A DNA stretch of 64,000 nucleotides, from NCBI RefSeq assembly GCF_037023755.1, contig NZ_CP146100.1, positions 4,681,501-4,745,500 on the forward strand, written 5' to 3'. The DNA comes from Saccharopolyspora sp. SCSIO 74807 (GTDB lineage: Bacteria > Actinomycetota > Actinomycetes > Mycobacteriales > Pseudonocardiaceae). Of the stretch, positions 5,628 through 43,775 are shown piece after piece. Numbering within the stretch: position 1 is the stretch's first letter; each line of letters opens with the position of its first letter. The position numbers and the translations under genes were made by a program. The notes beneath the pieces are model-generated. The model ran no database searches and had not been told where the DNA came from. It worked only from the letters and a program-made list of their open reading frames with translations.

Positions 5628-5672
5628 GCCTGCGAAGCTCGGTGCCGTCACCGGGAAACGTATGCTGCGGGC

Positions 5673-6458: not shown

Positions 6459-6498
6459 CGCGGCCGCCGGCAACCACGGAGTACGGAGGAGACCTCTC

Positions 6499-7491: not shown

Positions 7492-7510
7492 CTCACCGGC
7501 ACGAGTTCGA

Positions 7511-7521: not shown

Positions 7522-7534
7522 TGGAAAGGCGGTC

Positions 7535-7572
7535 GGGAATCTCGGAGATCCGCGGCGATCCTGGAGGTTCCC
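7535..7572. terminator. Probable bidirectional terminator between convergent genes
   Basis: An imperfect, nearly symmetric stem: GGGAA/TTCCC outside, CTC/GAG, a short mismatched zone, then GATC/GATC around a six-base loop. It lies between the convergent monooxygenase and SnoaL-like genes. There is no T-tract, as is common in high-GC actinomycetes. Confidence 0.45.
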
Positions 7573-7614
7573 GCTGCCCGGCGGGCTCCGCGAAACCGGA
7601 TCGGGCGAAGGCGT

Positions 7615-8088: not shown

Positions 8089-8193
8089 GCTCTCAGCCTG
8101 GAGCACCACCGGCGCGCGCACCAGACCCCGGATGCACCCGGTATCGCCCGGACCGAGCAAGCGCTCGGGGCGGCGATCACTGCGGACGCGGTA

Positions 8194-8222
8194 TTGAACC
8201 TCGCCGGGGATGACCTTAGAGT
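8194..8222 (+). promoter_or_regulatory. Promoter of the DUF1214 operon
   Basis: TTGAAC (8194-8199), a 17-base spacer and TAGAGT (8217-8222). The transcription start would fall inside the palindrome that follows. Confidence 0.5.
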
Positions 8223-8248
8223 CCTCGCTAGAACCTGTTCTAGCGAGG
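8223..8248. promoter_or_regulatory. KstR-type operator palindrome
   Basis: A perfect inverted repeat with 11-base arms (CCTCGCTAGAA and TTCTAGCGAGG) around CCTG. Its centre TAGAACCTGTTCTA matches the KstR consensus as I know it (TNNAACNNGTTNNA), the operator of the TetR repressor of sterol catabolism in mycobacteria and rhodococci. It covers the expected +1 and abuts the ribosome site of the downstream gene, a clear repression position. Confidence 0.7.
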
Positions 8249-8257
8249 GAGGTTCCG

Positions 8258-10500: not shown

Positions 10501-11279
10501 TGCTCTCCGATGAAGTGGTGCTGATCTCCGGAGTCGGCGCGGGGCTCGGCGCGAAGCTCGCCACCCGCGCTGCGGCCGAGGGGGCGAAAGTGGTCGCCGC
10601 GGCCCGTTCCGGCGACGTGCTCGCACAGGTGGAGCAGGACGTTGCTGCAGCGGGAGGGGAAGCGCTGGGAGTGCGCTGCGATGTCCGCGATCCCGACGAC
10701 GTGAGCAGGGTGGTGCGCACCGCGACCGAGAGGTTCGGCCCGATCACCGGGCTGGTCAACTCCGCCTACGGGCACCCCGGGTTCACCGATCTGCTGGATA
10801 CGCCGGAGAAGAAGCTGCGCCGGTCGATGGACATCATCCTGTTCGGGGCGCTGAACATGGCGCGCGAGGTCGTGCCGCACATGCGCGCCGCCGGCCGCGG
10901 CTCGATCGTCAACATCGGCACCATGGCCACTCGCAAGCCCCTCCGCGGTGAAGGCGGTTATTCGGTCGCGAAGGAGGCGATGGCCGCGGCGACCCGGTTC
11001 CTCGCGCTGGAGCTCGGCGAGTCCGCCATCCGCGTCAACCAGGCCGTGCTGGGCTGGCTGGACGGGCCGGGCGTGCGGTTCTACCTGGAGATGACCGCGC
11101 AGCAGCGCGGGGTGGACGAACAGCAGGTCTACGACGAGATCGCGGCGCGCAACCCGCTCGGCCGGATCCCGACCGACGACGCGTGCACCGGCGGAATCCT
11201 GTTCCTGCTGTCCCGCTACGCCAGCGAGATCACCGGCGCGACCCTGGACGTCAACGGCGGGGAGTACATGCCTTCGTGA
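10500..11279 (+). CDS. Short-chain dehydrogenase/reductase (atypical active site)
   Basis: A 259-residue SDR with cofactor loop SGVGAGLG. Two classical motifs differ: NNAG is replaced by NSAYGHP, and the position 13 residues before the catalytic Tyr of YSVAK is Thr (GTMATRK) rather than Ser. Tyr and Lys are intact, so activity is possible. GTG 10497 or ATG 10500 could start it; both follow GGGAGG. It overlaps the end of the sulfotransferase gene and closes the operon, ending in a strong stem-loop. The substrate is unknown; operon context suggests a sterol-like or lipid alcohol. Confidence 0.85.
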   Translation: MLSDEVVLISGVGAGLGAKLATRAAAEGAKVVAAARSGDVLAQVEQDVAAAGGEALGVRCDVRDPDDVSRVVRTATERFGPITGLVNSAYGHPGFTDLLDTPEKKLRRSMDIILFGALNMAREVVPHMRAAGRGSIVNIGTMATRKPLRGEGGYSVAKEAMAAATRFLALELGESAIRVNQAVLGWLDGPGVRFYLEMTAQQRGVDEQQVYDEIAARNPLGRIPTDDACTGGILFLLSRYASEITGATLDVNGGEYMPS

Positions 11280-11311
11280 CGGCCGGAGGCAGCCGTTGCC
11301 GCCGGGCCGTC
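11278..11311 (+). terminator. Terminator of the DUF1214 operon
   Basis: A two-part hairpin starting inside the SDR stop codon: GACGGCC pairs with GGCCGTC, and inside it GGCA pairs with TGCC around GCCGT. No T-tract follows. Confidence 0.6.
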
Positions 11312-11473
11312 TCTGAGCGAACGGACCGTTTGACCAATCTAGTGGGACCAACAGGCCGTTCACTGTCTGCGAGGCATGGTTACCGCCCGGTGCGGGAACT
11401 CGACGGGCAGGATGACCGGACGGGGCGCGGCCGAGGTGATCGGCGCGGTCTCGCGACGTGAGGACCGCCGGAG

Positions 11474-12019
11474 ATGGTGCAGGTACTGACGTTCGGGCAC
11501 GGCACCGCCACGCAGGACGAGATCATCCGGCTGCTCGGCGGAGCTGGCGTGGCCGGAGTGGTCGACGTGCGTTCCGCGCCGGGCAGCAGGCGCCACCCGC
11601 ACGTGGCGAGGGGCGAGCTCGAGAGCTGGTTGCCGCAGCAGGGCATTTCCTACCGCTGGGACCGGCGCCTGGGCGGATTCCGGAAGCTGCCGCCGGATTC
11701 CCCGGACCCGGTGTGGAACAACGACGCGTTCCGGGCCTATGCGGCGCACATGCGGACTTCGGAGTTTCAGTCCGCAGTGGACGGACTCGTCGACCAGGCC
11801 GTTGGCCAGGTGACCGCGATCATGTGCGGCGAAACGGTGTGGTGGCGTTGTCACCGGCGGATGATCGCCGATTTCCTGCAACTCGCGCGGGGGGTCGAAG
11901 TGCGGCACCTGATGCACGACAGCTCGCTGGCCGAGAACCGGCCCATTTCCGGTGTCCGGCTGCGCGACGACGGCCTGCTCGTATACGACGGGGGCAAGCC
12001 GACGCCGCAGCACGGATGA
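11474..12019 (+). CDS. DUF488 family protein
   Basis: A 181-residue DUF488 protein. It starts with the strand VLTFGHGTATQDEIIRLL, has VVDVRSAPGSRRHPH and the highly conserved CGETVWWRCHRRMIAD motif with its Cys and His residues. The family is widespread, small and of unproven function; a role in DNA- or nucleotide-related chemistry has been suggested only by context. ATG 11474 follows a GGAG ribosome site. It stands alone on the plus strand and faces the MFS transporter gene; only 24 bases separate the two stops. Confidence 0.88.
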   Translation: MVQVLTFGHGTATQDEIIRLLGGAGVAGVVDVRSAPGSRRHPHVARGELESWLPQQGISYRWDRRLGGFRKLPPDSPDPVWNNDAFRAYAAHMRTSEFQSAVDGLVDQAVGQVTAIMCGETVWWRCHRRMIADFLQLARGVEVRHLMHDSSLAENRPISGVRLRDDGLLVYDGGKPTPQHG

Positions 12020-12023
12020 ACCA

Positions 12024-12034
12024 TCCACTATGGA
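12024..12034. repeat. Dispersed dyad TCCACTATGGA, copy 2
   Basis: An 11-base near-palindrome, five bases after the DUF488 stop, filling the gap between convergent genes. It is followed by CGAAGGGCG. It matches copy 3 in 13 consecutive bases, counting the CG after the dyad. Confidence 0.4.
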
Positions 12035-12043
12035 CGAAGGGCG

Positions 12044-14011
12044 TCAAGCGGTGCTCCGCCCGTGGCCGGCGCCGTGCAAAGCGAGGTCCGCCGTGAGCGG
12101 TTTTCCCCCGCTGAAGCGGATTTCCCGAACCGCGGGCGTGTAGAGGCTCGCCACCACCACGTAGTCGCCCGGCGCGAGTCCGCCGAGTTCGTAGCGGCCG
12201 TCGGCGTCGGTGCTGGTACTGCCGATGACGTTGCCGCCGCTGTCGGTCACGGCCACGGTCACCTCCGGCAGAACACGTCCGCCGGGCGCGGTCACGGTTC
12301 CGGCGATGGCACCGAGTCCGGCGAGCGTGAAGTCCTGAACGGCACCGGAACCGTCTATCTGGACCGACTCCGCTTCCGGGCGGCACTCGTCCGCGGTGGC
12401 GATGATCGTGTACTGACCCGGTTGCAACGCGGGCACCGCGTAATTGCCCTCGGCGTCGCTGCGAACTCGGCCGACCTGGCGGCCACCGGGCTCGGTCACC
12501 GTGACCACCCCGGCGACGGCGCTGCCGGACGCGGTCCGCAGCGTGCCCGCGATGCCGCCCGGCTCAGCGGCGGCGTCCTGCGCGTCGTCGCCGGATCGGC
12601 GCTGGGCGGGCAAGAACGCCGCGATCGCGAGGGCGACCAGCGCCGCGAGCGAACCGATGCCCAGCACGACGCGGAACCCGTTCTGCGCGGGCACGGCGAC
12701 CGGGCCGAGGTCGACGGTCATGTGCGCGAGGATCACACCGGCCACCGCGCTGGAGGTGGACGTGCCGATCGAGCGCATCAGGGTGTTGAGGCTGTTGGCC
12801 GCGGCGGTCTCCGAGACCGGCACCGCCGCCATCACCAGCGCGGGCATCGCGCCGTAGGCGAGCCCGACCCCGGCACCGATGATGCTGGAGGCCAGCATCA
12901 GCTCCCAGATGGCCGACATCAGCACCAGGTTCAGGCCGTAGCCGGCGGCGACCACGACCGCGCCGGTCATCAACGTCACCTTTGGGCCCATGGTCCGGGA
13001 GATCCACGCCGAGATCGGCGCCATCGCCATCATCACCAGCCCGTTCGGGGCCATCACCAGGCCGGCGGCGAGCACCGTCTGGCCGAGCCCGTAACCGGTC
13101 GCTTCCGGCAGCTGCAGCAGCTGCGGCAGCACCAGGGACATCGCGAACATCGCGAACCCGAACACCACCGATGCGATGTTGGTCAGCAGCACTTGCCGCC
13201 GGGCCGAGGTGCGCAGGTCCACCAGCGGCCGCGGGCTGCGCAGCTCCCACCAGCCCCACACCAGCAGCACGACCAGCGCGGTAGCCAGCAGGCCCAAGGT
13301 CATGCCGCTGCCGAAACCCCAGTCCGCGCCTTTCGAGATCGCCAGCAGCAGGCACAGCAGCGCGATCGACAAGCCCACTGCGCCGGGCAGGTCGAACCGG
13401 CCTCCGGTGCGGACCCTGGACTCCGGCACGAGACCGAGCACGCCGGCCGCCGCGATGGTGCCGAGCCCGGCGGCGACCCAGAACAAGACGTGCCAGTCGG
13501 CCGTCTCGGCGATGAACGCCGCCGCGGGCAGGCCGAGCGCGCCGCCGACGCCGAGCGAGGCGCTCATCAGCGCGGTCGCCCCGCCGAGCCGCTCCGGCGG
13601 CAGCTCGTCGCGCATGATGCTGATGCCCAGCGGGATCACGGCCGAGGACAACCCTTGCAGCGTCCGGCCGACGATCATCATCCCCAGCCCGGCCGACAGC
13701 GCGCACAGCGCCGAACCGAGCACCAGCATCGCGAGGCTGAACAGCAGCATCCGGCGCTTGCCGTACATGTCGCCGAGCCGCCCCACCGTCGGCACCGCCA
13801 CGGCGGCGGCCAGCAGGGTGGCGGTGATCGCCCACGCGGTGTCGGCCGCGGGTGCGCCCAGCAGCGCGGGCAATTGCGGCACCAGCGGGATCACCAGGGT
13901 CTGCATCAGCGAGACCACGATTCCGCTGAAGGCCAGCACCGGGACGACGACGCGCGGGTGCGCCGGTTGCGCCGGGTCGGCAACGGGCGGCGAGCTGAGC
14001 GTGCGGGTCAT
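12044..14011 (-). CDS. MFS drug exporter with two C-terminal beta-sandwich repeats
   Basis: A 655-residue protein. Residues 1-470 form a DHA2-type (about 14-helix) major facilitator: the GRLGDMYGKRRM loop and GRTLQGLSSAVIPLGISIMRD are classic drug:H+ antiporter motifs. Residues 485-562 and 565-645 are two tandem carboxypeptidase-regulatory/CnaB-like repeats (GTLRTASGSAVAGVVTV then DAEGNYAVPALQPGQY; GTVTAPGGRVLPEVTV then DADGRYELGGLAPGDY). Such domains are usually extracytoplasmic, yet the 14-helix topology would place the tail in the cytoplasm. An operator-like palindrome precedes the gene. Export of a drug or metabolite is inferred. Confidence 0.9.
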   Translation of the reverse strand: MTRTLSSPPVADPAQPAHPRVVVPVLAFSGIVVSLMQTLVIPLVPQLPALLGAPAADTAWAITATLLAAAVAVPTVGRLGDMYGKRRMLLFSLAMLVLGSALCALSAGLGMMIVGRTLQGLSSAVIPLGISIMRDELPPERLGGATALMSASLGVGGALGLPAAAFIAETADWHVLFWVAAGLGTIAAAGVLGLVPESRVRTGGRFDLPGAVGLSIALLCLLLAISKGADWGFGSGMTLGLLATALVVLLVWGWWELRSPRPLVDLRTSARRQVLLTNIASVVFGFAMFAMSLVLPQLLQLPEATGYGLGQTVLAAGLVMAPNGLVMMAMAPISAWISRTMGPKVTLMTGAVVVAAGYGLNLVLMSAIWELMLASSIIGAGVGLAYGAMPALVMAAVPVSETAAANSLNTLMRSIGTSTSSAVAGVILAHMTVDLGPVAVPAQNGFRVVLGIGSLAALVALAIAAFLPAQRRSGDDAQDAAAEPGGIAGTLRTASGSAVAGVVTVTEPGGRQVGRVRSDAEGNYAVPALQPGQYTIIATADECRPEAESVQIDGSGAVQDFTLAGLGAIAGTVTAPGGRVLPEVTVAVTDSGGNVIGSTSTDADGRYELGGLAPGDYVVVASLYTPAVREIRFSGGKPLTADLALHGAGHGRSTA

Positions 14012-14055
14012 CGGCGGAAGGCTCCCGTCGGTGCGGCGTGGCCGACTGGTGATTC

Positions 14056-14067
14056 AGTCACGTGACT
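14056..14067. promoter_or_regulatory. Perfect 12-base palindrome upstream of the MFS exporter
   Basis: AGTCACGTGACT, 45 bases before the transporter start. A weak minus-strand promoter (TTGCTA at 14073-14078, about 17-18 bases, AATCAC) would straddle it. The flanking ATTCAGTCA is shared with one half of the P450 operator at 1535-1554, so one repressor could see both. Confidence 0.5.
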
Positions 14068-14163
14068 TACGCTAGCAAGCCCGCCCGCGCTCTTCAGCCC
14101 TTCCGGATTGTTGTGCGGTGACTCAGGTCCGCTCGACGCGGCTTCACCGCACGGCTCCCGGCC

Positions 14164-15726
14164 TCACCGCCCGGCGCCGATCAGCCGCTCCCGCAGCCGG
14201 GAGGTCAGCCCGGCCAGCATCGACGAGCGTCGCTGCGGCTCGGGGAGTGCGCCCGAAACCGCGTCGTCGAGTAGCGTGCCGACCGTTTCCCGCGCGCATT
14301 CCCGGTTCGCGCCGATGCCGCCGGACGGGCCGCGCTTGATCCACCCGACGACGTAGGTGCCGGCTCGCCCCTCGACGCGCCCGCCGGAATGCGGGATCGT
14401 GCCGGTCTGCTCGTCGAAGGGCAGGCCCGGCAGCGCGGTCCCGCGATAGCCGATCGCCCGCACCACCTGCCCGGCCGGGATCTCCACGCCACCGGTGACT
14501 CGCAGCCCGCGTACCTCGGTGTCGCCGAGGAGTTCCTCCGGCGCGGAATGGAACCGCAGCACGATCCTGCGCTGCGAGGGGGTGGCGGCCCAGTCCACCT
14601 GCTCCCGCGGCACGGTCCGCAGCAGAGCCGCCTTGTCATCGGACGCGGCGGAATCGATGGCCGCCGCGATGCGCGGATCGTGGTCGTCGACCACCAGGGA
14701 TGCGCCCTGCTGCTGGGTCAGCGCCAGCATCTCCGGCCTGGTGTAGGCGGCCGATTCCGGGCCTCGCCTGCCGAGCAGCACGACCTCGCGGACCTTGCTG
14801 GAACGCAGCCGTTCCAAGGCTTCCGGGGAGATCGAGGTGCCCTGCAGCGCATCCGGGTCGCTGGTGAGGATCCGTGCCACGTCCAGCGCGACGTTGCCGT
14901 TGCCCACGATCGCCACCCGCTCATTGGAGAGGCCGACCGCGTCCGCGGGCACGTCCGGGTGGCCGTTGTACCAGGCCACCGCGCTCGTGGCGGTGATGCT
15001 GCCTGCCAGGTCCTCACCCGCGATGCCCATCCGCCGCGCGGAGGAGGCGCCGACCGCGTAGATCACCGCGTGGTGCTGGGCGCCGAGTTCCTCTGCGGTG
15101 ACGTCGCGGCCGACCTCGACGCCGAGGCGCAACCGCAGCCGCGGGTGGTCGTGGAAGCGCGCGAACGTCTCACCGATCTTCTTCGTCGACGGGTGGTCCG
15201 GAGCCACGCCGTAGCGCAGCAGGCCCCCGGCGACCGGCAGCCGGTCGATCAGCGTGACCTTGGCGTTGGTGTGCAGCAGCAGGTCCTCGACGGCGTACAT
15301 CCCCGCGGGCCCGGTCCCGACCACGGCGACATCCAGCGGCGCGAGGTCGCTGGGGATGTTGCGGTCGAAGACCGGTTGCTGCCAGGAGTGGAAGTTCGGC
15401 GAGGGCTGCGTATCCGCTGCTGCGGCCGGAGCTTCCGCCGCGGCCCGTCCCGGGGCCTCCGCCACCGGTGCCTTGTCCGCGAAGTAGTCCGCGTTGACTT
15501 CGGCGTACGCCTTCAGCGGCCCGGTGAGCCGGTCCACCGGGAAGATCGCCTCCACCGGGCAGGCATCGGCGCACGCCCCGCAGTCGATGCAGGTGGCCGG
15601 GTCGATGTAGAGCATCTCGGTGCTGCCGAAGTCCGGTTCGTCCGGCGTCGGGTGGATGCAGTTGACCGGGCACACCTTCACGCAGGAGGCGTCGTTGCAG
15701 CAGGTCTGGGTGATCGCGAAGGCCAT
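14164..15726 (-). CDS. fprB: Ferredoxin/ferredoxin-NADP+ reductase, FprB type
   Basis: A 520-residue fusion. Residues 1-75 are a 7Fe/8Fe ferredoxin with two Cys clusters (CVKVCPVNC and CIDCGACADACP). After an Ala/Pro-rich linker, an adrenodoxin-reductase-like flavoprotein follows with FAD loop VVGTGPAGMYA and NADP loop VGNGNVALDVARIL. It closes with GWIKRGPSGGIGANR. It would pass electrons from NADPH to an internal or partner ferredoxin. It lies 106 bases downstream of an AurF-like oxygenase on the same strand, a pairing also found in mycobacteria, which suggests it is the oxygenase's electron source. Confidence 0.92.
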   Translation of the reverse strand: MAFAITQTCCNDASCVKVCPVNCIHPTPDEPDFGSTEMLYIDPATCIDCGACADACPVEAIFPVDRLTGPLKAYAEVNADYFADKAPVAEAPGRAAAEAPAAAADTQPSPNFHSWQQPVFDRNIPSDLAPLDVAVVGTGPAGMYAVEDLLLHTNAKVTLIDRLPVAGGLLRYGVAPDHPSTKKIGETFARFHDHPRLRLRLGVEVGRDVTAEELGAQHHAVIYAVGASSARRMGIAGEDLAGSITATSAVAWYNGHPDVPADAVGLSNERVAIVGNGNVALDVARILTSDPDALQGTSISPEALERLRSSKVREVVLLGRRGPESAAYTRPEMLALTQQQGASLVVDDHDPRIAAAIDSAASDDKAALLRTVPREQVDWAATPSQRRIVLRFHSAPEELLGDTEVRGLRVTGGVEIPAGQVVRAIGYRGTALPGLPFDEQTGTIPHSGGRVEGRAGTYVVGWIKRGPSGGIGANRECARETVGTLLDDAVSGALPEPQRRSSMLAGLTSRLRERLIGAGR

Positions 15727-15832
15727 CGGTGCAATGCCTGTCTTCGAGTCCGGTCGGGCAGGTGGTCAGGTGGCGAAAGCGGGCCGCTCGCTCCCGCAGC
15801 AGGCTCGACGTCCGGCTCTGCCGAGCCGCGGC

Positions 15833-16780
15833 TCAGAGCAGGCTGGCGCGCTTGTAGAACCAGGTGGCGGGCTTGGTGAGCAGCCCGGCCGAGTGCAGGA
15901 ACTCCATCAGCCCGGAGCAGCTGGAGCGCAGCATCGACTTGTGCTGCTGGTTGGCCTTCGCCTCGCGCTTGGCGCGCTCGGGATCCAGCCCGGCGTTGGC
16001 GTAGACCTCGTCGTTGACCATGCTGGTGACGATGAAGTAGGCGGAACCGGCCACCACCACGGCGTTGATCTGCCGCCGCAGCCACCCGGCGGACTTGAGC
16101 CGCTCCTTGGTCTCCTCGCGGGCGAACTTCATGTGCCGCGATTCCTCGACCACGTGGATGTTGTTGATGGTCCGCACGAACGGCACCACCCGCTGGTCGC
16201 GCATCCAGTCGCGCTGCATGACGTCGAGGACCTCCTCGGCGACCAGGATCGCGGCGTAGGCGGCTTCACCTCCGGCCAGCGTCTTGAACACGCGGCCGAG
16301 TTCGACCACCGAGCGCTTCGGCCGGTACGCGGGTGCGCCCAGCTTCGCCGCACCGCGGGCGAACATGATCGAGTGCCTGCACTCGTCGGCGATCTCGGTC
16401 AGCGCCCACTGGAACGCCGGGTCGGTCGGGTCCTTCGCGTAGAAGTCCCGCAGCATCATCTGCTGCAGGATCATCTCGAACCAGATCCCGGTGCTGGCCA
16501 CCGATGCGGCTTCCTGGCGGGTCAGCTCGCGCTGCTGGGCCGGGGTCAGCTCGTCCCAGTAGGACGTCCCGTACAGCGTGCTCCACTCCGGGCTGGCGCC
16601 GTGGAAATCGGTGTCCAGCGGGGTTTCCCAGTCGACTTCCTGGGCGGGGTCGTAGGAGAGCTGCTCCGAGGAGTCCAGCAACCGGCGCGCGGTGCTGTCC
16701 CGCTCGGCGTCCGCGGGCGCGGCATCGTGGTCTTCGGACTGCGCCGGTCGCGTGTCCGTGCCGGTGATGTTGCTGCTCAT
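15833..16780 (-). CDS. AurF-family diiron oxygenase
   Basis: A 315-residue ferritin-like protein of the AurF (p-aminobenzoate N-oxygenase) family. The seven-ligand pattern is visible: Glu near 102, E133xxH136 (DECRH), Glu 182/183 (VAEEVLDV), His 209, and E213xxH216 (VEESRH). This matches the extra-His diiron site of AurF. The substrate could be an aromatic amine or a lipid; family members range widely. ATG 16780 follows a GAGG site. The neighbouring FprB is the probable reductant supply. Tandem operator-like repeats lie just upstream. Confidence 0.88.
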   Translation of the reverse strand: MSSNITGTDTRPAQSEDHDAAPADAERDSTARRLLDSSEQLSYDPAQEVDWETPLDTDFHGASPEWSTLYGTSYWDELTPAQQRELTRQEAASVASTGIWFEMILQQMMLRDFYAKDPTDPAFQWALTEIADECRHSIMFARGAAKLGAPAYRPKRSVVELGRVFKTLAGGEAAYAAILVAEEVLDVMQRDWMRDQRVVPFVRTINNIHVVEESRHMKFAREETKERLKSAGWLRRQINAVVVAGSAYFIVTSMVNDEVYANAGLDPERAKREAKANQQHKSMLRSSCSGLMEFLHSAGLLTKPATWFYKRASLL

Positions 16781-33769: not shown

Positions 33770-33965
33770 CTGTCGACCCCCCGCGTCGCGGCTGGTCCAA
33801 GGATAGGTGGCTCGCGACCCGGGGTACCGGCTGCGAGCGGTAGCGAATTGCTCGCCGGCGGTCGTTCTCGGCATTTCGGGCGATGTGGCACGCAGTGTCG
33901 AGACGGCGCGGTGATCCGTTCTATGATCGACACTCTGCCCGCGGTACGAGCAACAGGTGGTGGAC

Positions 33966-34802
33966 GTGAGCGACCCGGTCTTTTCCCGGCTTTCCAGCGG
34001 GCGGGCGCCGGTCCCGTCGCAGATCGACACGAGCGTTCCTTCGATCGCGCGGGTCTACGACTACCTGCTCGGCGGGAAGGACCACTACGAGGCGGATCGG
34101 CAGTCGTGCCGGACGATGATCGAGGCGGTCCCGGAGACACCGCTGCTGGCGAAGGCCAACCGCGCGTTCCTGCGCCGGGCGGTGCGGTACCTGGTCGGTG
34201 AGGCCGGCGTGCGCCAGCTCGTCGACATCGGCTCCGGCCTGCCCACCGCGGGCAACGTGCACGAGGTCGCGCAGCGCATCGATCCGGAAGTCCGGGTGCT
34301 CTACACCGACAACGACCCGATCGTGCTCGCGCACGGGCGCGCGTTGCTGCCCGCCGACGAGACCACCGGACTCATCCACGCGGACCTGCGCGACCCGGAC
34401 GCGATCTTCGACGACCCCGAGACTCATCGGCTGATCGACCCCGACCAGCCGTTCGCAGTGCTGCTCGGCGGAATCCTCATGCACCTCGAAGCCGAGGAGG
34501 ACCCGGACGGCGTCGCCGCCCGCATCCGCGACCGGCTGCCCTCGGGCGGCTACCTGATGGCCTCGAACACCTGCGACACCGGCGAGCCGCACGCCCGCGA
34601 CCTCGCCCGCGCGTTCGCCGAAGGCGGCATGGGCTCGAACTGCTTCCGCACCCGCGAGCAGCAGTTGCACTACTTCGACGGCCTCGAACTGATCGAACCC
34701 GGCCTGGTGCCGAACAACCAATGGCGACCGGACGAGGACTTCCCGGACCCGCAGAACCCGGCACACGCCCTGCACATCGGCGCCATCGGCCGGAAACCCT
34801 GA
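33966..34802 (+). CDS. S-adenosyl methyltransferase family protein (DUF574)
   Basis: A 278-residue protein of the DUF574 family, abundant in Actinobacteria. ARVYDYLLGGKDHYEADR is the family signature. VDIGSGLPTAGNVHEVA is the SAM-binding loop, followed by the acidic strand end YTDNDP. Targets of the family are largely unknown. The GTG at 33966 has AGGTGG upstream; GTGs at 33957 and 33960 are alternatives. It is divergent from the GGDEF gene and convergent with the immunity gene. Confidence 0.9.
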   Translation: MSDPVFSRLSSGRAPVPSQIDTSVPSIARVYDYLLGGKDHYEADRQSCRTMIEAVPETPLLAKANRAFLRRAVRYLVGEAGVRQLVDIGSGLPTAGNVHEVAQRIDPEVRVLYTDNDPIVLAHGRALLPADETTGLIHADLRDPDAIFDDPETHRLIDPDQPFAVLLGGILMHLEAEEDPDGVAARIRDRLPSGGYLMASNTCDTGEPHARDLARAFAEGGMGSNCFRTREQQLHYFDGLELIEPGLVPNNQWRPDEDFPDPQNPAHALHIGAIGRKP

Positions 34803-34908
34803 GCGGCCCTCGGTACGCCCGGGTGGGAAGGTTCCGACCTAGCGCTGAGGGACATCCCGCACGTCGCTTGCTGCCGGGATTCAGCGTGTTCGACGAGTGG
34901 GAATCTGC

Positions 34909-35388
34909 TTAGTCGATATACGGAGAGGGAAAGTTTTCCGTCACAAAAAGACCGGATTCTCTTATTTCTGAGATTTCGCTTGCATCGTTTCCGCTGGAGC
35001 CGATGTACATGTAGTAATCATATCCGACATGTACGTAGAACCGCTCTCCGTTCTCCAGCTTGCACCAAACCGGCCCTTCGCGAAGCATCATCCTGCAGAG
35101 CTCCAAGCCCTGATCAATGGTGACGAGTCCCCCCTCCCGCACGGAGACTCCGCTGTCCTCGTCGACCTCCAGGTCCCGGACTTCTAGTGAGCTAACCCCA
35201 GATGAGGAAGCCAGCAAGCGAATCGCTTCCAGGTAAGCGGACTCGGTGCGGCGATAATCCGAATGTGTCAGGATCGCACCGTCGAACTCCTTTCCTATCT
35301 CGGACATCGAAGTCCAGTCGTCGCCCTCGTAAGCGCCACCCGCACCGTATAGTTCGGGGTCGTACTTGGTGATCTTGTATTGGTGCAT
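34909..35388 (-). CDS. Presumed immunity protein for the Rhs toxin
   Basis: A 159-residue acidic protein with no signal peptide, transmembrane segment or well-known motif. It starts MHQYKITKYDPE, with EGDDWTSMSEIGKEF following, and ends in aromatic strands (YVHVGYDYYMYIGS). The ATG lies three bases after the rhs stop, the usual place of the cognate immunity gene in polymorphic toxin loci. Base composition is clearly more AT-rich than the surrounding genes. Its function is inferred from position; I do not recognise the family with certainty. Confidence 0.7.
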   Translation of the reverse strand: MHQYKITKYDPELYGAGGAYEGDDWTSMSEIGKEFDGAILTHSDYRRTESAYLEAIRLLASSSGVSSLEVRDLEVDEDSGVSVREGGLVTIDQGLELCRMMLREGPVWCKLENGERFYVHVGYDYYMYIGSSGNDASEISEIRESGLFVTENFPSPYID

Positions 35389-35391
35389 CTG

Positions 35392-35715
35392 TCAATCCCC
35401 GACCTGGTAGAGTTCCCATGGCTCGTCCGTCCCCCGTGGTCGCCCCAGACCGAGGGTTCCGTCACGAGTTTGCTTCGAGCCGAGCGCCCGCACACTCTTG
35501 GCAACCTTGAAAAGGCCACCACTGTGGCCGTCCACATCATAACTGTAGTATTTCTTGCCGTCGGTGAACACGGGCTGGCCGTGACTCTTGTTGGGCTTCG
35601 ATTCGAGTGGCTTGAGCCCTACGAACTTGGCGAGATCTTTCTGCTGCGCTGGACTGAGCTTCCCCGCAGGGCTAGCTGGCCCTGTGTGTCGGACTGCATT
35701 TTCTATGCATTCCTT
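35392..35715 (-). other. C-terminal toxin tip, Ntox21-like
   Basis: The 107 residues after DPLGLAP. GQPVFTDGKKYYSYDVDGHS, then GGLFKVAKSV, TRDGT and a final QVGD match my memory of the Ntox21 pattern (GQ-VF, D-D-H-GG-K, R-GT, GD at the end), a predicted RNase toxin. The conserved Asp, His, Lys and Arg are present. The family call is tentative. Confidence 0.6.
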
Positions 35716-38700
35716 GGGGGCGAGACCGAGCGGATCGATCCACACTTGCGGGTTGATCACGTACCGGTGTGCGTCAGGGCCACCAGCAAGACCCACCGGA
35801 TCAGCGCTCGAATATCTTCCGATGGAAGAATCATAATGGCGGTAAAAGTTGTAATTAAATCCTGTTTCGGGGTCGAAATACTGGCCGGGAAACCGCAGCG
35901 GCACGCGCGTTGCGACAGAATTTTGCAGGACGGTTCCGCCCCACAATGCCGTCCGATCGATCCAGTCAATGCTACCGCGGCCATCGACTGTTTCCGACGG
36001 GCTTCCGGAGAGATCGGCGACAATGGAAAAGAAATTCTCGTCCACCCACTGCTGAGGCGCGTCGTGCGCGGCGGTGCGTCCATTCTGGGTCAATGGCCGA
36101 AACGTTCCAGGTTGATAGTCCCATGCGGTCGCCTTCGCATCCGTAAGAACGGTCCCGCCAGGATCGAATTCAGTGTGCTCTTGCTCTGCCAGAACCGTGC
36201 CGTCCCAACTGAATTTGATCTGCTCGACGACTTCGGGGCCTTCTGGATCAAAACGTTCCTTCGCCACTCGCCGTCCCAGGGCATCGTATCGATATCGCCA
36301 TCGTTGTCCGTCGGGAGTTACTACGGCGGTCAATCGGTCGTCGGTGTCCCAGAAGTACTGCCAAGTGGCCGGCTTTCGCGACAGACGCTTCTGCTGACGG
36401 AGCACCATCCGTCCTTGGTCGTCGTGTTCGTAACGGACCTTGCCCGCTCGGCGGATCAAGGTTCCCGTGTACTCGCGTTCTCCGTGGGCTTCGGAGTCGT
36501 AGGACTGCTCCGGGCTCGGCCACGCCGCGTTCGTGACATTGCCCGCAGAGTCGTATGCGTAGCGCTCGGTCCAACCCCGGCCCTGTACTGCCGTCACTCG
36601 CCCAGCTCGGTCGAGGGTGAAGGTGCGGTCGCCGGTGAGTCGGTCTTCGATGCCGGTGAGGTAGCCGTCGGCGCGGTATTGGTAGGCGCGGTGCTGGGTT
36701 CGTTTACCGCCTTGACCGATCAACGTTTGTGACTTGAGCTGATGGTTCGCATCCCATGCCTGGGTAAGGACCGCCTCGCCGCCGATGGAGCGGTGGATCT
36801 CGCGACCCGCCGCGTCGTGGTCGAACCGAATCGTGCGGCCTGCGGTGTGCAGCGCGACCGGGTTGCTGTTCGCGTCGTATTCCCAGTCGGTTTCCGCCCC
36901 GGACGGGGTGACGCGCCGGGTTCGACGCCCCAACATGTCATAGGCCGAAGTCAGGGTGCGCCCGTTGATGGTTTCGCTCAGCACACGTCCTGCCGGATCG
37001 CGTTCAAAGGTCACGTACGCATCCGAGTTGATCGCATGGCGGAGCCTTCCGGCTTCGTCATACGTGAACGTGGCACTCGTGTCGCCCCCACGGCGTTCGA
37101 CGACGTCGCCGAGCAAGTTGTGGTTGAACGTCGTCGTCTCGCCCGCCCCATTGGTTCGTTCGACGAGTTGGCCCGCAGCGTCGTGACGGTAGGTGAGAGT
37201 GCGGTCGTTGAAGTCCGTCTCGGAGACCAGACAACCCGTGGCGTCGTAGTCGTAGCGCCAGACGAGGCCCTGCTCGTTGGTCACGTTTACGAGGCGGAGT
37301 TCGGTGTCATAGCGAAATTCGAGCCGCGTGCCGTCCGGGCGCACCTCCGCTGAGGGCAGGTCGAAATGAGTTACGTCTGTGGACGTGCACTGCCCGAGCG
37401 CGTCGACATGGGTGCGGAGATTGCCCTCCCCGTCGTAGAGCCACCGCTCAGTGGCGCCATCAGGCAGGATGCGCCACGCGGGTTTGCCGTCGACGGTCCA
37501 GCCCAAGCGGGTCGCCCCGCCGACCGGGTCGGTGATCACGACGACGCGACCGAATGCGTCACGTTCGTACCAGGTCGTGGCGCCGAGCGGGTCAGTGATC
37601 GCGGTCGCCAAGCCCGTAGCATCTATCTCAACGCGAGTGGTGTTCCCCAGTGCGTCGGTGACGTTGACGAGATGGCCATTCCGATCGTATTCACAGGTAG
37701 TGGCCGCATCCGCCGGATCGACAGACCGGGTCAGGTTCCCGCGTTCGTCGTATTCGTTACGCGTAATCGCACCGTCCGGAGCGATAAGCGTGATCGGGAG
37801 TCGGAGGTCGTTGTATTCGGCTCGGATGCGGCTTCCGTCCGGGCGGATGACGGAGGCGACGTTGCCGTCCTCGTCGTACTCGTAGTTGGTGGTGCGGCCC
37901 AGCGGGTCGGTGCGGGCGAGGAGGCGGCGGTGTTCGTCCCATTCGGAGTGGGTTTCGGCGCCGTGTGGGTCGATTTCGCGGGTGACTTGGCCGTCGTTGT
38001 CGAGGTGGTAGGCGGTGGTGTGGCCGAGGGAGTCGGTGACGTGGGTGATCGCGTTGTCGAGGTCGTAGTCGAAGGTGGCCGACAGCGAGCCGCCGGAGCC
38101 TTCGGTGCGCACGCACCTGCCCTCGGCGTCGTAGGTGTAGCGGTACCAGCAGTCGTTGCGGTCGGTCCAACCCGTGATGCGCCCGGCGTCGTCGTAGTCG
38201 AGCGTCAACGGTTGGCCGGAGGCGTTGATGACTTCGGTGAGCCGCTCGCCGTGGTAGCGGTAGCGCATCAGGGCCACGTCCGCACCGTTGTCGGCGTCGC
38301 ACAGGTACAGCGCGGTCACCAGGCGGTTGGTGGTCTCGATCCGGATGCGGTAGCCACCACTGTGCTCGATCTCGGTGGGTAATCCGGTGTCGTCGTGGTG
38401 AAAGTCGATGCGGTGGCCGTTGCGGTCGGTGATCGCCGTGAGCGGCCAGTGGGTGTCGTGCTGGGTGAAGTGCAGCTGCTGGCCCAGGGGCACGTCGGTG
38501 ATCGTGTAGCCGCCGTCGTCGGTGCGGGTCAGCGGCCAGCGCGGGCCCTCGGCCGGGTAGACCTCCACACCGGGCATCGGGTCCGGGTAGCACAGGGCGA
38601 GCCCGTCTTCGGAAGCGAAGTACACGCCCTCGGCGTCGACCTCGAGCCGCTGGTCCAAAGTGGACGCCCAGCTGGGGCCGAACGCGAGCCCGATCCGATA

Positions 38701-39834
38701 CGACGACAGATGGGTGCGGCGCAGGATCAGCGGCAGCAGCCCGCCGAGTTCGACATCGGTCTGGGTCATCACCATGCGGCCGCTGTCGATGTCGATCGGG
38801 TCCTTGCACAGCGGCATCTCCCGGGTCGTCTTCGACAACCCCGCCGCATCACCCGCGTGTTTGGTGCCGCGCAGGCCCTTGGCGGCCTTCGACAAGCCCC
38901 CGATGGCTTTGCTGCCGAGTTTCGCGACTCGTCCGAACGGTATGACGGTTAATGCGGTGTCGACGAGTATCGAGGTGAGGCTGCCTTCGCCGGTGGCGGC
39001 GTAGATACCGGCGTCGATGGCCAGCGCGGCGCCGCCGGTGATGCCGGCGGCGATGAGGAAGGCGCCGCCGACGGCGTTGCCGACGACCGGGATCGCCTGC
39101 AGGACCAGACCGACGACCGCGAGCGCGCCCGAGACGACCTTCAGCGCCGAGGAGATCTCCTTGAGCACATCCTTGTTCTCGCGGATGAAGTCCTGCCCCT
39201 GCCCGATGAGGTCGTAGCTGGCCGGGGGCTCTTTGAACCGCATCCCCTTGGCCTCGTGGATGCGATTCGTGCACTCACGGGCCGCAGCGGTCATCTCCGT
39301 GCGCAGGCCGTTGGCCTTGTCCACGCAGTCCTGCCACGCCGCCCGCGCCGACGACAACGCCGCCGAGGCGTCCCCGGTATCCGACTCATACGCAGGGCCC
39401 GGCGGCGGAGCCTGCCCGGCCGGAGCATGAGCCGCCTTCTCCCGCTCCGCCTGGGCATGAGCACGGTCGGCCGACTCCGCCCGCTCCACACGACCCTCGC
39501 TGGCCTTGAGCTGCTCCCACAAGCCAGGCGCCTGATGCGCTAGCGGTCGCATCTTGCCCTGCAGCTCCGACAACCGCGACGAGAAGGTGTTCAGCGCCGT
39601 GCCGACCTGGCTGAACGCCGTGCCGGTCACCCGCAGGTCCGGCGGCAACTCCGAATCGATCTTCTCCCGGAACTGCTCCGCCTCCGGACCCTGGAACTGA
39701 CCCGTGTCCATGCTGGTGATCCGCTCGGCCGCGTGCGCCGCGGACTCGCCGAAACGGTCATACCGGCGGGCCGAACCCGCGATCGCCTCCGGCGACCCGC
39801 CCAGCGAGAACAAATGCTCCGGAAAATCCGCCAT
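35392..39834 (-). CDS. Rhs/YD-repeat polymorphic toxin with type VII-like N terminus
   Basis: A 1480-residue protein. Residues 1-130 are helical and resemble WXG100/type VII putative-secretion domains (FSLGGSPEAIAG; Gln/Ser-rich heptads), with an Ala/Pro linker near 140. Residues 230-282 are a hydrophobic stretch. A DUF6531-like block starts near 342 (CKDPIDIDSGRMVM). Many YD repeats follow (YDAAGR-type) to the RHS core end RYSSADPVGLAGG...WIDPLGL at about 1373. The last 107 residues are the toxin tip. ATG 39834 follows GGTGGGGG. It likely kills or inhibits neighbours and needs the downstream protein for self-protection. Confidence 0.9.
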   Translation of the reverse strand: MADFPEHLFSLGGSPEAIAGSARRYDRFGESAAHAAERITSMDTGQFQGPEAEQFREKIDSELPPDLRVTGTAFSQVGTALNTFSSRLSELQGKMRPLAHQAPGLWEQLKASEGRVERAESADRAHAQAEREKAAHAPAGQAPPPGPAYESDTGDASAALSSARAAWQDCVDKANGLRTEMTAAARECTNRIHEAKGMRFKEPPASYDLIGQGQDFIRENKDVLKEISSALKVVSGALAVVGLVLQAIPVVGNAVGGAFLIAAGITGGAALAIDAGIYAATGEGSLTSILVDTALTVIPFGRVAKLGSKAIGGLSKAAKGLRGTKHAGDAAGLSKTTREMPLCKDPIDIDSGRMVMTQTDVELGGLLPLILRRTHLSSYRIGLAFGPSWASTLDQRLEVDAEGVYFASEDGLALCYPDPMPGVEVYPAEGPRWPLTRTDDGGYTITDVPLGQQLHFTQHDTHWPLTAITDRNGHRIDFHHDDTGLPTEIEHSGGYRIRIETTNRLVTALYLCDADNGADVALMRYRYHGERLTEVINASGQPLTLDYDDAGRITGWTDRNDCWYRYTYDAEGRCVRTEGSGGSLSATFDYDLDNAITHVTDSLGHTTAYHLDNDGQVTREIDPHGAETHSEWDEHRRLLARTDPLGRTTNYEYDEDGNVASVIRPDGSRIRAEYNDLRLPITLIAPDGAITRNEYDERGNLTRSVDPADAATTCEYDRNGHLVNVTDALGNTTRVEIDATGLATAITDPLGATTWYERDAFGRVVVITDPVGGATRLGWTVDGKPAWRILPDGATERWLYDGEGNLRTHVDALGQCTSTDVTHFDLPSAEVRPDGTRLEFRYDTELRLVNVTNEQGLVWRYDYDATGCLVSETDFNDRTLTYRHDAAGQLVERTNGAGETTTFNHNLLGDVVERRGGDTSATFTYDEAGRLRHAINSDAYVTFERDPAGRVLSETINGRTLTSAYDMLGRRTRRVTPSGAETDWEYDANSNPVALHTAGRTIRFDHDAAGREIHRSIGGEAVLTQAWDANHQLKSQTLIGQGGKRTQHRAYQYRADGYLTGIEDRLTGDRTFTLDRAGRVTAVQGRGWTERYAYDSAGNVTNAAWPSPEQSYDSEAHGEREYTGTLIRRAGKVRYEHDDQGRMVLRQQKRLSRKPATWQYFWDTDDRLTAVVTPDGQRWRYRYDALGRRVAKERFDPEGPEVVEQIKFSWDGTVLAEQEHTEFDPGGTVLTDAKATAWDYQPGTFRPLTQNGRTAAHDAPQQWVDENFFSIVADLSGSPSETVDGRGSIDWIDRTALWGGTVLQNSVATRVPLRFPGQYFDPETGFNYNFYRHYDSSIGRYSSADPVGLAGGPDAHRYVINPQVWIDPLGLAPKECIENAVRHTGPASPAGKLSPAQQKDLAKFVGLKPLESKPNKSHGQPVFTDGKKYYSYDVDGHSGGLFKVAKSVRALGSKQTRDGTLGLGRPRGTDEPWELYQVGD

Positions 39835-40160
39835 CGCAACCCCCACCACACGAACCCACGCCGAGACGGCGCGCACAGACGATCCGGCCAACGGCAACAG
39901 GCACGAACAAAGCGCATTGAGCAAGCGCTCGCACGCGACTGCACCCGTGATCACGACAGATCATCGCGAGTCTACGACACCACCCGGACCCGCCGAGGCC
40001 GAACGGAAATCCCGCGATCCACGACCGCAGCGACGTAGCCGAACCGATGCCGGCCGCGAGGTGCCGCCTCCGAGTGGTCGATCATCCGCGCAGCCTTGAC
40101 AACATGTCGACACAGGGCACAATCAGGCAACAACAAATCTTGAAGCGGAGGAAAACGGGC
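39835..40160. other. Divergent intergenic region between rhs and the fructose operon
   Basis: 326 bases. The half nearest the fructose operon contains a TTGACA promoter (40096-40123). The rest holds no convincing gene, repeat or hairpin; open frames here lack ribosome sites. No clear promoter for rhs was found. Confidence 0.5.
40096..40123 (+). promoter_or_regulatory. Promoter of the fructose operon
   Basis: Perfect TTGACA at 40096-40101, then 16 bases to CACAAT (or 17 to ACAATC), 37 bases before the DeoR gene start. The CAGGCAACAACAA stretch immediately downstream could hold the FruR-type operator. Confidence 0.6.
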
Positions 40161-40919
40161 ATGTACGGGGCCGAGCGGCAGCAGCTGCTGGCGCAGCGGG
40201 CGCGGCGCGACGGGCGCATCGACGTCATGGCCGCGGCGGCCGAGCTCGAGGTCGCACCGGAGACGATCCGGCGCGATCTCGGCGCGCTCGAACGGCAGGG
40301 GCTGGTGCGCCGCGTCTACGGCGGAGCCATCCCGGTGGGCCGCATCGACTTCGAACCGGGCGTGACCCAGCGCGACAAGACCAACGCCGCGGAGAAGGAA
40401 CGCATCGCCCGCGCCGCGGTCGACCTGCTGCCGCAGCGCGGCACGCTGCTGCTCGACGCGGGCACCACCACCGGCAGGCTGGCCGGGCTGCTGCCCAGCG
40501 ATCGCGAATACACCGTCGTGACGAACTCGCTGCCGGTGGCCACCCAGCTCGCCAACCGGACCAACTGCACGCTGCACATGCTCGGCGGGCGCATCCGAGG
40601 CACCACGTTGGCCTCGGTCGAGTCGTGGGCGCTGGACGTGCTGGCGGGGCTGACCGTGGACGTCGGGTTCTTCGGCACCAACGGCTTCTCCGCTCACCGC
40701 GGATGCACCACGCCGGACACCGCGGAAGCGGCGGTGAAGGCGGCGATGGTCGCGGCCAGCCGCAGGCGCGTGCTGCTGGCCGACCACAGCAAGTACGGCG
40801 ACGACCAGTTCAGCCGCTTCGCCCGGATCTGCGAGATGGACGCCGTGGTGAGCGATGAGGCGTTGGACGCCGAGGCCCGCGCCGAACTCGCCGCGGAGAC
40901 CGAAGTGGTCCCGGCATGA
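40161..40919 (+). CDS. fruR: DeoR family regulator of the fructose operon
   Basis: A 252-residue DeoR-type repressor. The N-terminal winged helix has VMAAAAELEVAPETIRRDLGALERQGLVRRVYGGA-type sequence, the canonical DeoR signature. The C-terminal sugar-phosphate isomerase-like domain has DAGTTTGRLA and GTNGFSAHRG. It very probably senses fructose-1-phosphate. ATG 40161 follows GGAGGAAA; an upstream frame extension lacks support. Its stop overlaps the fruK start (ATGA), so it is the first gene of the operon and likely autoregulated. Confidence 0.92.
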   Translation: MYGAERQQLLAQRARRDGRIDVMAAAAELEVAPETIRRDLGALERQGLVRRVYGGAIPVGRIDFEPGVTQRDKTNAAEKERIARAAVDLLPQRGTLLLDAGTTTGRLAGLLPSDREYTVVTNSLPVATQLANRTNCTLHMLGGRIRGTTLASVESWALDVLAGLTVDVGFFGTNGFSAHRGCTTPDTAEAAVKAAMVAASRRRVLLADHSKYGDDQFSRFARICEMDAVVSDEALDAEARAELAAETEVVPA

Positions 40920-41863
40920 TCGTCACGGTCACCCCGAACCCGAGCCTGGACCGCACCGTCGCGGTGGACCGGCTGGTTCCGGGCACGATCCACCACGCCG
41001 GTGCCGCGCGCCTGGACCCGGGCGGCAAGGGCGTGAACGTGGCCCGGGCGCTGGCGGCGGCGGGCAGCCGCACCGTGGCCGTGCTGCCCACCGGCGGTGC
41101 CGAGGGCGCCGAGCTGGCCGAACTGCTCACGTCCGAAGGCGTCCCGGTGGCCGAGGTGCCGATCGCGCGGTCGATCCGCAGCAACCTCGCCGTCGTCGAA
41201 GCCGACGGGACCACGAGCAAGTTCAACGAGCCCGGCCCGGAACTGACCGGGACCGAACAAGCCGCGCTCGAAGCGCGTTCCGCCGAACTCGCCGAAACGG
41301 CGGATTGGCTGGTCACCTGCGGGAGCCTGCCCGCGGGCGGCGCGGACGACCTGCACGCGCGGCTTGTGGCCGCCGGGCGCGCCGCGGGCACGCGCGTGGC
41401 GGTCGACGCTTCCGGCGCGGCGCTGACCGCTGCCTGCGCGGCCGGGCCGGACCTGATCAAGCCGAACCTGCAGGAACTGTCCGGGCACGTCGGCAGACCG
41501 CTGCCGCGGCTCGGCGACGTGCTCGACGCCGCTGGCGAGATCCGGTCGTGCGGGGTGCGGGCGGTCCTGGTCAGCCTCGGCGAGCACGGGGCGCTCCTGG
41601 CGGAGTGCGGCGGAGCCTGGCACGCGACGAGCCGGGCGGTTCCGGCGGTGCTCAGCACCGTCGGAGCGGGAGACGCGACGCTCGCGGGTTTCCTGCGAGC
41701 GGGGGGATCCGGGCCCGCGGCCCTGCGCGCGGCGGTCGCCTACGGCACCGCCGCGGTCGGGCTGGCGGGCTCCCGGATGCCCGCCCCGCACCAGGTGCGC
41801 ACGGCACGGGTGCGGGTGCACGAAGTGGACGAGACGTTGAGCCTCACTGGAGCGGCGGCATGA
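40916..41863 (+). CDS. fruK: 1-phosphofructokinase
   Basis: A 315-residue PfkB-family kinase that converts fructose-1-phosphate to fructose-1,6-bisphosphate. The start ITVTPNPSLDRTV-like sequence (VTVTPNPSLDRT) and LDPGGKGVNVARAL are diagnostic of 1-phosphofructokinase, with the catalytic-base signature STVGAGDATLAGFL at residues 243-256. It overlaps the regulator gene upstream and the EIIA gene downstream by four bases each, so it belongs to the fructose PTS operon. Confidence 0.95.
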   Translation: MIVTVTPNPSLDRTVAVDRLVPGTIHHAGAARLDPGGKGVNVARALAAAGSRTVAVLPTGGAEGAELAELLTSEGVPVAEVPIARSIRSNLAVVEADGTTSKFNEPGPELTGTEQAALEARSAELAETADWLVTCGSLPAGGADDLHARLVAAGRAAGTRVAVDASGAALTAACAAGPDLIKPNLQELSGHVGRPLPRLGDVLDAAGEIRSCGVRAVLVSLGEHGALLAECGGAWHATSRAVPAVLSTVGAGDATLAGFLRAGGSGPAALRAAVAYGTAAVGLAGSRMPAPHQVRTARVRVHEVDETLSLTGAAA

Positions 41864-42315
41864 CCCCCACCGAACTGATCACGCCCGGCCTGGTCGACCT
41901 CGACCTCGCGGCCGACGACCGGCGCGCGGCCGTGCGCTCGATGGCGCAGCGGGCCGTCGACGCCGGGCGGATCACCGACCTCGAACGGTTCCTGGCCGAT
42001 GTGCGGGCCCGGGAGGAGCAGATGGCGACCGGGCTGGAAGGCGGCATCGGCATCCCGCACTGCCGCTCGGCCGCGGTGACCGAGCCGACGCTGGTGTTCG
42101 CCCGCAGCACCGCGGGGGTCGATTTCGGCGCCGACGACGGCCCGGCGACGCTGATCTTCCTCATCGCCGCGCCGGAAGGTGGCGGGGAGGAGCACATGAC
42201 CGTGCTCGCCGCGCTCGCCCGGCGGCTGGTGCGCGAGGAGTTCACCACGGCGCTGCGCCGGGCCGACGATCCGGCGGCGCTGGCGCAGTACGTGCGCCAG
42301 GAGGTCTCGCCGTGA
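41860..42315 (+). CDS. PTS fructose-specific EIIA component
   Basis: A 151-residue EIIA of the fructose/mannitol type. His67 in GIGIPHCRS is the phosphorylation site; ATGLEGGIG and EEHMTVLAALARRL are conserved around it. It takes phosphate from HPr and passes it to EIIB. It is a separate polypeptide here, overlapping fruK and the EIIBC gene. Confidence 0.93.
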   Translation: MTPTELITPGLVDLDLAADDRRAAVRSMAQRAVDAGRITDLERFLADVRAREEQMATGLEGGIGIPHCRSAAVTEPTLVFARSTAGVDFGADDGPATLIFLIAAPEGGGEEHMTVLAALARRLVREEFTTALRRADDPAALAQYVRQEVSP

Positions 42316-43775
42316 AGTTCGTGGCCGTCACCGCCTGCCCCACCGGAATCGCGCACACCTACATGGCGGCCGAAGCCCTGGAGCAGGCGGCGAAGGACGC
42401 AGGCGCCGAGATCCGGGTGGAGACGCAAGGCTCGGCCGGGTCGAGCCCGCTTTCCGAGGCCGACGTGCGGGCGGCGGACGCGGTGATCTTCGCTGCTGAC
42501 GTCGGCGTGCGGGACCGCGAGCGTTTCGCGGGAAAACCGATCGTCGAAGCCGGCGTCAAGCAGGCCATCAACGACGCCGCGGGTCTGCTCGAACGCGCAG
42601 ACACGGCAGCCGAGCACAAGCCCGAAGCCGCCGAAGCGGCGGCGCCGGACGATTCCGGAGCAGCCGAACTGGGCAGCAAGGTGCAGGCGGGCGCAGGTCC
42701 GGCCGCACGGCTGCGCCAATGGCTGATGACCGGCGTGAGCTACATGCTGCCGTTCGTGGCCGCGGGCGGACTGCTCATCGCGCTGAGCTACGCGCTCGGC
42801 GGCTACCAGATCACCGAGGCACCACCGGTCACCGAGCACTTCGACGCGGCGAGCGCGCAGAGCTGGGCGGCACTGGCCAACCAGATCGGTCAGCAGGCGT
42901 TCGACTTCCTGGTGCCGGTGCTCGCCGGCTTCATCGCGTTCGCGATGGCCGAGCGCCCGGCGATCGCGCCCGGGTTCGTCGGCGGCGCGGTCGCGGTGAC
43001 CGTCGGCGCCGGGTTCCTCGGCGGGCTCGTCGCGGGCCTGCTGGCCGGTGCCGTGGTCGCCGCGCTGGTGCGGATTCCGGTGCCGCGGGCGGTCGCCGGG
43101 ATCATGCCGGTGGTGGTGCTGCCGCTGCTGGGCTCGCTGCTGGTCGGCGCGATCATGTTCGTGCTGGTCGGCAAGCCGATCGCCGCGGCGATGAGCGGGC
43201 TGACCGGCTGGCTCAGCGGCCTGTCCGGAACCAACGCCGCGCTGTTCGGGGCGCTGCTGGGCGCGATGATCGCGTTCGACATGGGCGGACCGGTCAACAA
43301 GGTCGCCTACACCTTCGCCGTCGGCGGGCTGAGCATCGCCAGCGAGACCTCGCTGGAGGTCATGGCCGCGGCGATGGCTGCGGGGATGGTGCCGCCGTTG
43401 GCGCTGGCGCTGGCCTCTGCGGTGCGCGCGAAGCTGTTCACCGCGGCCGAGCGCAACGCCGGTCGAACGGCGTGGTTGCTGGGCGCATCGTTCATCACCG
43501 AAGGCGCGATCCCGTTCGCGGCGGGCGACCCGCTGCGCGTGATCCCGCCGGTCGTGCTCGGCTCGGCCACCACGGGTGCGCTGTCGATGGCCGCAGGTGC
43601 CACGTTGCGCGCCCCGCACGGCGGGGTGTTCGTGCTGCCGCTCGCCGGGCACCTGTTGCCGTACCTGGGTGCGATCGTCGCGGGCGTCGTGGTCGCGGCG
43701 GGGGCGGTGCTGCTGGCCAAGCGGCTCCGGCGGACCGAGCGGACCGGCGCCGCCGAAACCGCCGTCGCAGCCTGA
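42312..43775 (+). CDS. fruA: PTS fructose-specific EIIBC permease
   Basis: A 487-residue fusion. Residues 1-100 are EIIB with the phosphocysteine Cys9 in TACPTGIAHTYMAAEAL. After an Ala-rich linker, residues 135-475 form the EIIC channel with about nine to ten hydrophobic helices, including MTGVSYMLPFVAAGGLLIALSYALGG (split here: the MLPFVAAGG core), FDMGGPVNKVAY and FITEGAIPFAAGDP, which holds the conserved substrate-site Glu. It imports fructose as fructose-1-phosphate. The GTG start overlaps the EIIA stop. Confidence 0.95.
   Translation: MKFVAVTACPTGIAHTYMAAEALEQAAKDAGAEIRVETQGSAGSSPLSEADVRAADAVIFAADVGVRDRERFAGKPIVEAGVKQAINDAAGLLERADTAAEHKPEAAEAAAPDDSGAAELGSKVQAGAGPAARLRQWLMTGVSYMLPFVAAGGLLIALSYALGGYQITEAPPVTEHFDAASAQSWAALANQIGQQAFDFLVPVLAGFIAFAMAERPAIAPGFVGGAVAVTVGAGFLGGLVAGLLAGAVVAALVRIPVPRAVAGIMPVVVLPLLGSLLVGAIMFVLVGKPIAAAMSGLTGWLSGLSGTNAALFGALLGAMIAFDMGGPVNKVAYTFAVGGLSIASETSLEVMAAAMAAGMVPPLALALASAVRAKLFTAAERNAGRTAWLLGASFITEGAIPFAAGDPLRVIPPVVLGSATTGALSMAAGATLRAPHGGVFVLPLAGHLLPYLGAIVAGVVVAAGAVLLAKRLRRTERTGAAETAVAA

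Follow-up and report, generated by a model that had tools for sequence, protein, structure and literature searches.

A two-gene locus of Saccharopolyspora sp. SCSIO 74807 probably encodes a polymorphic antibacterial toxin together with its immunity protein, the toxin being exported by an EccC/EccD-type type VII secretion system (T7SS) and carrying a C-terminal tip that would cut 16S rRNA. The locus lies on the minus strand of the 64,000-nucleotide stretch of DNA analyzed here (the window). Its features are as follows.

35392..39834, minus strand: Rhs polymorphic toxin of 1480 amino acids (ATG at 39834, stop codon ending at 35392; open reading frame, translation and Pfam/NCBIfam domains).
39304..39798, minus strand: T7SS_signal domain PF21725, residues 13-177, a helical export module with an FQG hinge at residues 47-49 (Pfam).
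38596..38802, minus strand: DUF6531 (PF20148), the N-terminal plug of the Rhs shell, residues 345-413 (Pfam).
35722..38595, minus strand: shell of RHS/YD repeats (PF05593, 19 copies; Pfam) and Rhs-associated core (TIGR03696, residues 1298-1371; NCBIfam).
35725..35802, minus strand: DPVG-X18-DPLG, the Rhs aspartyl autoprotease motif, residues 1345-1370 (exact motif match).
35395..35721, minus strand: toxin tip past the predicted cleavage site, residues 1372-1480, with the Ntox21 match at 1402-1461 (Pfam, PDB searches and fold).
34909..35388, minus strand: candidate immunity gene, 159 amino acids, new family, with conserved GYDYYMYIG and SPY; its start is 3 nt past the Rhs stop codon.
34806..37950, minus strand: segment in which a conspecific genome has a different sequence (remainder of the core, tip and immunity gene); the upper boundary is approximate.

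The first-pass annotation had placed a 1480-residue Rhs protein at 34909-39834. These coordinates are correct, and they cover an intact Rhs frame plus the 159-aa candidate immunity open reading frame. The G+C content falls from 71% in the window to 59% in the toxin tip and 54% in the immunity gene, as expected for an exchanged cassette. On one side, the cassette is flanked by an S-adenosyl methyltransferase gene (PF04672; window 33957-34802). The other flank (window 40047-43775) appears, judged only by its sequence, to contain a DeoR-type regulator and a fructose-PTS operon. A plasmid-borne origin of the locus was rejected, as plasmid searches returned only distant homologues of the tip and the immunity protein.

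All Pfam matches of the Rhs protein (T7SS_signal, DUF6531, RHS repeats and Ntox21) were above their respective cut-offs. The 19 RHS repeats were detected at an E-value of 1.6e-76 and the Rhs-associated core at 9e-19. The autoprotease motif agrees with the published definition, DPxG-X18-DPxG (PMC10684867). With repeats and core, this motif preceding the tip, and a variable tip with a linked immunity gene, the protein is by its sequence features an Rhs polymorphic toxin. The shell, the DUF6531 plug and the DPxG-X18/19-DPxG self-cleavage motif are shared with the type VI secretion system (T6SS) effectors RhsA, Rhs1 and Tse5 (PMC10684867), but those proteins have T6SS-type N termini, whereas the window protein has PF21725.

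The tip was assigned to the Ntox21 family by three approaches. PF15526 (Ntox21) matched residues 1402-1461 with 55.8 bits against a cut-off of 25. A phmmer search of the PDB with the tip gave a single match, 4NTQ, the CdiA-CT toxin of Enterobacter cloacae (E = 4e-5), and a profile built from 15 tips reached the same entry at E = 4.3e-16 across the entire domain. The AlphaFold2 model of the tip (pLDDT 80) also had 4NTQ as its top Foldseek match (probability 1.00, E = 4e-3), the next match having an E-value of about 1. E. cloacae CdiA-CT, a member of the Ntox21 family, is a colicin-E3-like nuclease: its catalytic residues are D203, D205, H207 and K214, and it cleaves 16S rRNA between A1493 and G1494 (PMC9086364). 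These four residues align with D1433, D1435, H1437 and K1443 of the tip, which also has R1457 and R1467-x-x-D1470. Zhang et al. (2012) listed the motifs of the family as K, [DS]xDxxxH, K, RxG[ST] and RxxD (PMC3482391), and the list is matched in the tip by SYDVDGH, K1443, RDGT and RGTD, with RxGT and RxxD at the family spacing. An Ntox21-like tip with conserved Asp, His, Lys and Arg had been proposed from the sequence by the first-pass annotation, and the toxin-family match that it called for was thus found, by profile and by fold.

Family membership predicts the decoding site of 16S rRNA as the target of the tip. It is unlikely that the tip, while an RNase with the colicin-E3 fold, acts on another RNA instead, be it a tRNA or rRNA at some other site. 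Zhang et al. entered Ntox21 as a tRNAse with a predicted BECR fold (PMC3482391), other BECR CdiA tips are tRNases (PMC9086364), and this tip has an atypical C-terminal end. However, the 16S rRNA activity, which was described in a later structural review, belongs to the sole member that has been characterized and solved (PMC9086364), and this member (4NTQ) is the only solved structure clearly matched by the tip in both sequence and fold.

Compared with the family consensus, the C-terminal end of the tip has 10 extra residues, F in place of a conserved W, and RDGTLGLG instead of RxGTYDxxL. With its last 24 residues off consensus, there is some doubt that the tip is active. A frameshift at this divergent end was rejected, as RDGT and RGTD are in frame at the family spacing. 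The divergent end, together with the frequency of orphan immunity homologues described below, would fit a degenerate tip in a locus retained as a relic for its immunity gene. We consider this very unlikely: the 4.4-kb frame is intact, every catalytic position is kept, and the toxin gene has its antidote gene right beside it.

The 159-aa gene was evaluated through its homologues. Among 84,980 species genomes scanned, 62 loci had immunity homologues, from many phyla, and further homologues were found in plasmids and genomes of the same order. At 13 loci, from Dependentiae to Clostridia, an Ntox21 tip is located immediately upstream of the immunity homologue, and the two mostly overlap or nearly touch. 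On the strength of these homologues directly behind Ntox21 tips, the 159-aa gene is, by comparative sequence analysis, a genuine partner of the tip and a candidate antidote. Most of the remaining homologues are orphan copies, which are usual for immunity genes. In Streptococcus sp. 121, an Ntox21 toxin frame is followed by several tandem immunity homologues, forming a multi-immunity array (locus positions 1-7068). In Aquisphaera insulae (locus positions 5696-6504), all that is left of an Ntox21 tip is about its last 19 residues, in frame directly before the immunity homologue, a toxin remnant.

GYDYYMYI was invariant in an alignment of 38 members of the immunity family. No Pfam family was found for the protein. 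An Imm41/barstar-type protein, as listed for Ntox21, was rejected: the window protein had no such Pfam match, and only one of the 38 homologues matched Imm41, at E = 0.049. A PDB profile search with the family found no relative. The structural model of the protein was confident (pLDDT 93.7), and Foldseek gave no clear fold match with it (best E 0.13, probability 0.14). With VIA, ribosomal protein S6 and designed ferredoxin folds scored best (Z 5.1), a likeness that may be only a common arrangement. CdiI, the E. cloacae immunity protein in 4NTQ, was not recovered by sequence and was absent from the Foldseek and VIA-align lists, neither of which held a clear fold match. An immunity-like domain was also detected inside longer proteins of actinomycete genomes and a Streptomyces plasmid; in one actinomycete genome and in the plasmid it is followed by S1 RNA-binding domains. 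A search for an Ntox21 tip at these loci gave no match. These longer proteins are possibly ribosome- or RNA-linked protection factors.

Another genome of the species was compared at this locus, and its flanks there are 99-100% identical. The Rhs genes of the two genomes share 92-100% identity per 150-bp bin to about position 37950 and then diverge, and identity returns at 34805. The tip and the following antidote gene of the conspecific allele are unrelated to those in the window. This comparison is direct evidence that tip and antidote are exchanged by recombination within the shell gene. The genome encodes four Rhs proteins including the window copy, whose tips are unrelated to one another; one of them is an AHH nuclease. 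The three paralogues are 89-93% identical to the window protein over about residues 1-330, and their shells are 73% identical. Rhs proteins from other species in the genus, with shells 63-65% identical, start with a Ser/Pro/Gly-rich stretch in place of the T7SS_signal module, so that the delivery part is swapped as well.

The N terminus had been described in the first-pass annotation as a WXG100-like helical domain. The type-VII character of this description held, as PF21725 (T7SS_signal) matched with 33.5 bits against a cut-off of 27, covering positions 71-229 of the 241 in the profile. Membership of the WXG100 family itself was rejected: PF06013 had no match to the Rhs protein at E<=1, and a motif scan identified the hinge as FQG and not WxG. 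The domain is thus T7SS-signal-like in sequence and not a WXG100 protein. A motif scan of residues 1-330 detected no YxxxD/E signal, a point against the mechanism proposed below, as is the lack of a WXG100 or ESX gene beside this copy. Outside the Rhs proteins, the same N-terminal module is present in a 487-aa frame whose C-terminal domain is a glutamine-deamidase toxin (PF15644; own genome 5361619-5362581) and in a 608-aa open frame (6055752-6056765). A decayed copy, a fragment of the module with an in-frame TGA, is located at 5397307-5397816 and is also present in the conspecific genome.

The earlier statement that secretion genes are lacking nearby is accurate for the window, where tblastn detected no homologue of EccC, EccD or WXG100. 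The search for ESX loci that it proposed revealed two with EccB elsewhere in the genome, plus a third cluster with EccC and EccD. The locus at 1.15 Mb encodes EccB, EccC, EccE and a mycosin-type protease, and that at 0.83 Mb encodes EccB, EccD and an EccC homologue. In the third, T7SS-like cluster at 6.04-6.06 Mb, EccC and EccD were above the NCBIfam cut-offs (EccC above both) and are accompanied by a WXG100 pair, of which one member was above the cut-off. No match to EccB was obtained in this cluster by Pfam search. A 66-aa single-pass membrane protein without a Pfam match is encoded there, and in our reading its layout resembles the N terminus of EccB. The cluster (positions 6654-16148 within own genome 6039500-6059000) also encodes a MinD-like protein and a 98-aa helical protein.

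Two effectors bearing the N-terminal module are encoded in the 6.04-6.06 Mb cluster: the 608-aa open frame and an Rhs paralogue, the latter directly downstream of eccC and 91% identical to the window protein at the N terminus. Neighboring genes for a WXG100-type partner or for the ESX core, absent at the window copy, are thus present at one paralogue, and also in relatives, where WXG100 homologues are located immediately upstream of the module at five loci. Among 250 genomes of the order, nine have a match to the module at E<=1e-20. When 299 genomes were ranked by their match to the 66-aa protein, these nine came first (E<=1.1e-6), and EccC and/or EccD lie nearby in each of them. These E-value lines were drawn after the results had been seen, and weak matches lie beyond them (three genomes for the module and eight for the 66-aa protein). 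The nine genomes represent three families and about three independent lineages, and the naive p-value of 1e-16 for the co-occurrence overstates the support, as seven of the nine belong to one genus. Clusters resembling the one at 6.04-6.06 Mb, in which EccC and/or EccD accompany the small proteins, were seen in eight of the order's sampled genomes.

Judged from these sequences, the most likely delivery route is a T7SS of the EccC/EccD/WXG100 type, since clusters of this kind contain genes with the same N-terminal module, both here and in relatives. Export of the same toxin through either of the more complete ESX loci (1.15 or 0.83 Mb) is improbable: both are present and have more of the classical ESX core, but tblastn located the module inside the EccC/EccD cluster (in this genome and in relatives) and not at either ESX locus, and its co-occurrence with that cluster likewise counts against them. 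As a tentative reading, to which we give somewhat less than even credence, the module may mark effectors of an undescribed actinobacterial T7SS subtype. Its components would be EccC and EccD, two WXG100 proteins and one further small helical protein, with EccB replaced by a tiny single-pass membrane protein, and scattered Rhs toxins would be loaded in trans by the WXG100 pair of the machine locus. The 6.04-6.06 Mb cluster, with EccC, EccD and no Pfam-recognized EccB, is not among the T7SS subtypes described in the available portion of PMC11217815.

Taken with the favored EccC/EccD route, the proposed mechanism is as follows. The N-terminal helical module would target the Rhs protein to the EccC/EccD-type T7SS, and the EccC locus at 6.04-6.06 Mb would probably provide the WXG100 pair in trans. 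The tip would be enclosed by the Rhs shell and cut free by it at the DPxG-X18-DPxG site. On entering a sensitive neighbor, we infer, the Ntox21 tip would cut 16S rRNA at the A1493/G1494 decoding site and translation would stop, while in the producer the 159-aa protein would bind the tip and confer protection.

Two known systems are close to this one. CdiA-CT/CdiI of E. cloacae, whose toxin (4NTQ) is the founding member of Ntox21, shares the toxin family, the catalytic Asp/Asp/His/Lys and the predicted 16S cut; it differs in its CdiA carrier, two-partner secretion and Gram-negative host, and the tip of the window protein ends differently. LrhA of Listeria monocytogenes likewise combines DUF6531 and Rhs repeats with a helical N terminus, a T7SS association and WXG100-type partners (PMC10327511). 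However, it belongs to a T7SSb of Bacillota, its N terminus has no recognized domain, its tip is not assigned, and its WXG100-type partners are encoded alongside (PMC10327511), whereas none adjoins the window Rhs gene.

T7SS-linked Rhs toxins have already been reported (PMC10327511 and PMC11217815); the latter associates them with several T7SS types, T7SSa and T7SSc-j. Zhang et al. had also listed Ntox21 with T7SS and Actinobacteria (PMC3482391). The present analysis adds an immunity family that has no name yet, an allelic exchange documented at this locus, and a specific cluster as a candidate for export. In this actinobacterial locus, a tip of the colicin-E3-type, ribosome-cutting family is combined with a type VII export module, and tip and antidote are seen to be exchanged at one locus between conspecific genomes. 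The delivery question is narrowed to eccC of the 6.04-6.06 Mb cluster, and the candidate antidote family, which has no Pfam entry, is widespread in bacteria and can be tested against Ntox21 toxins.
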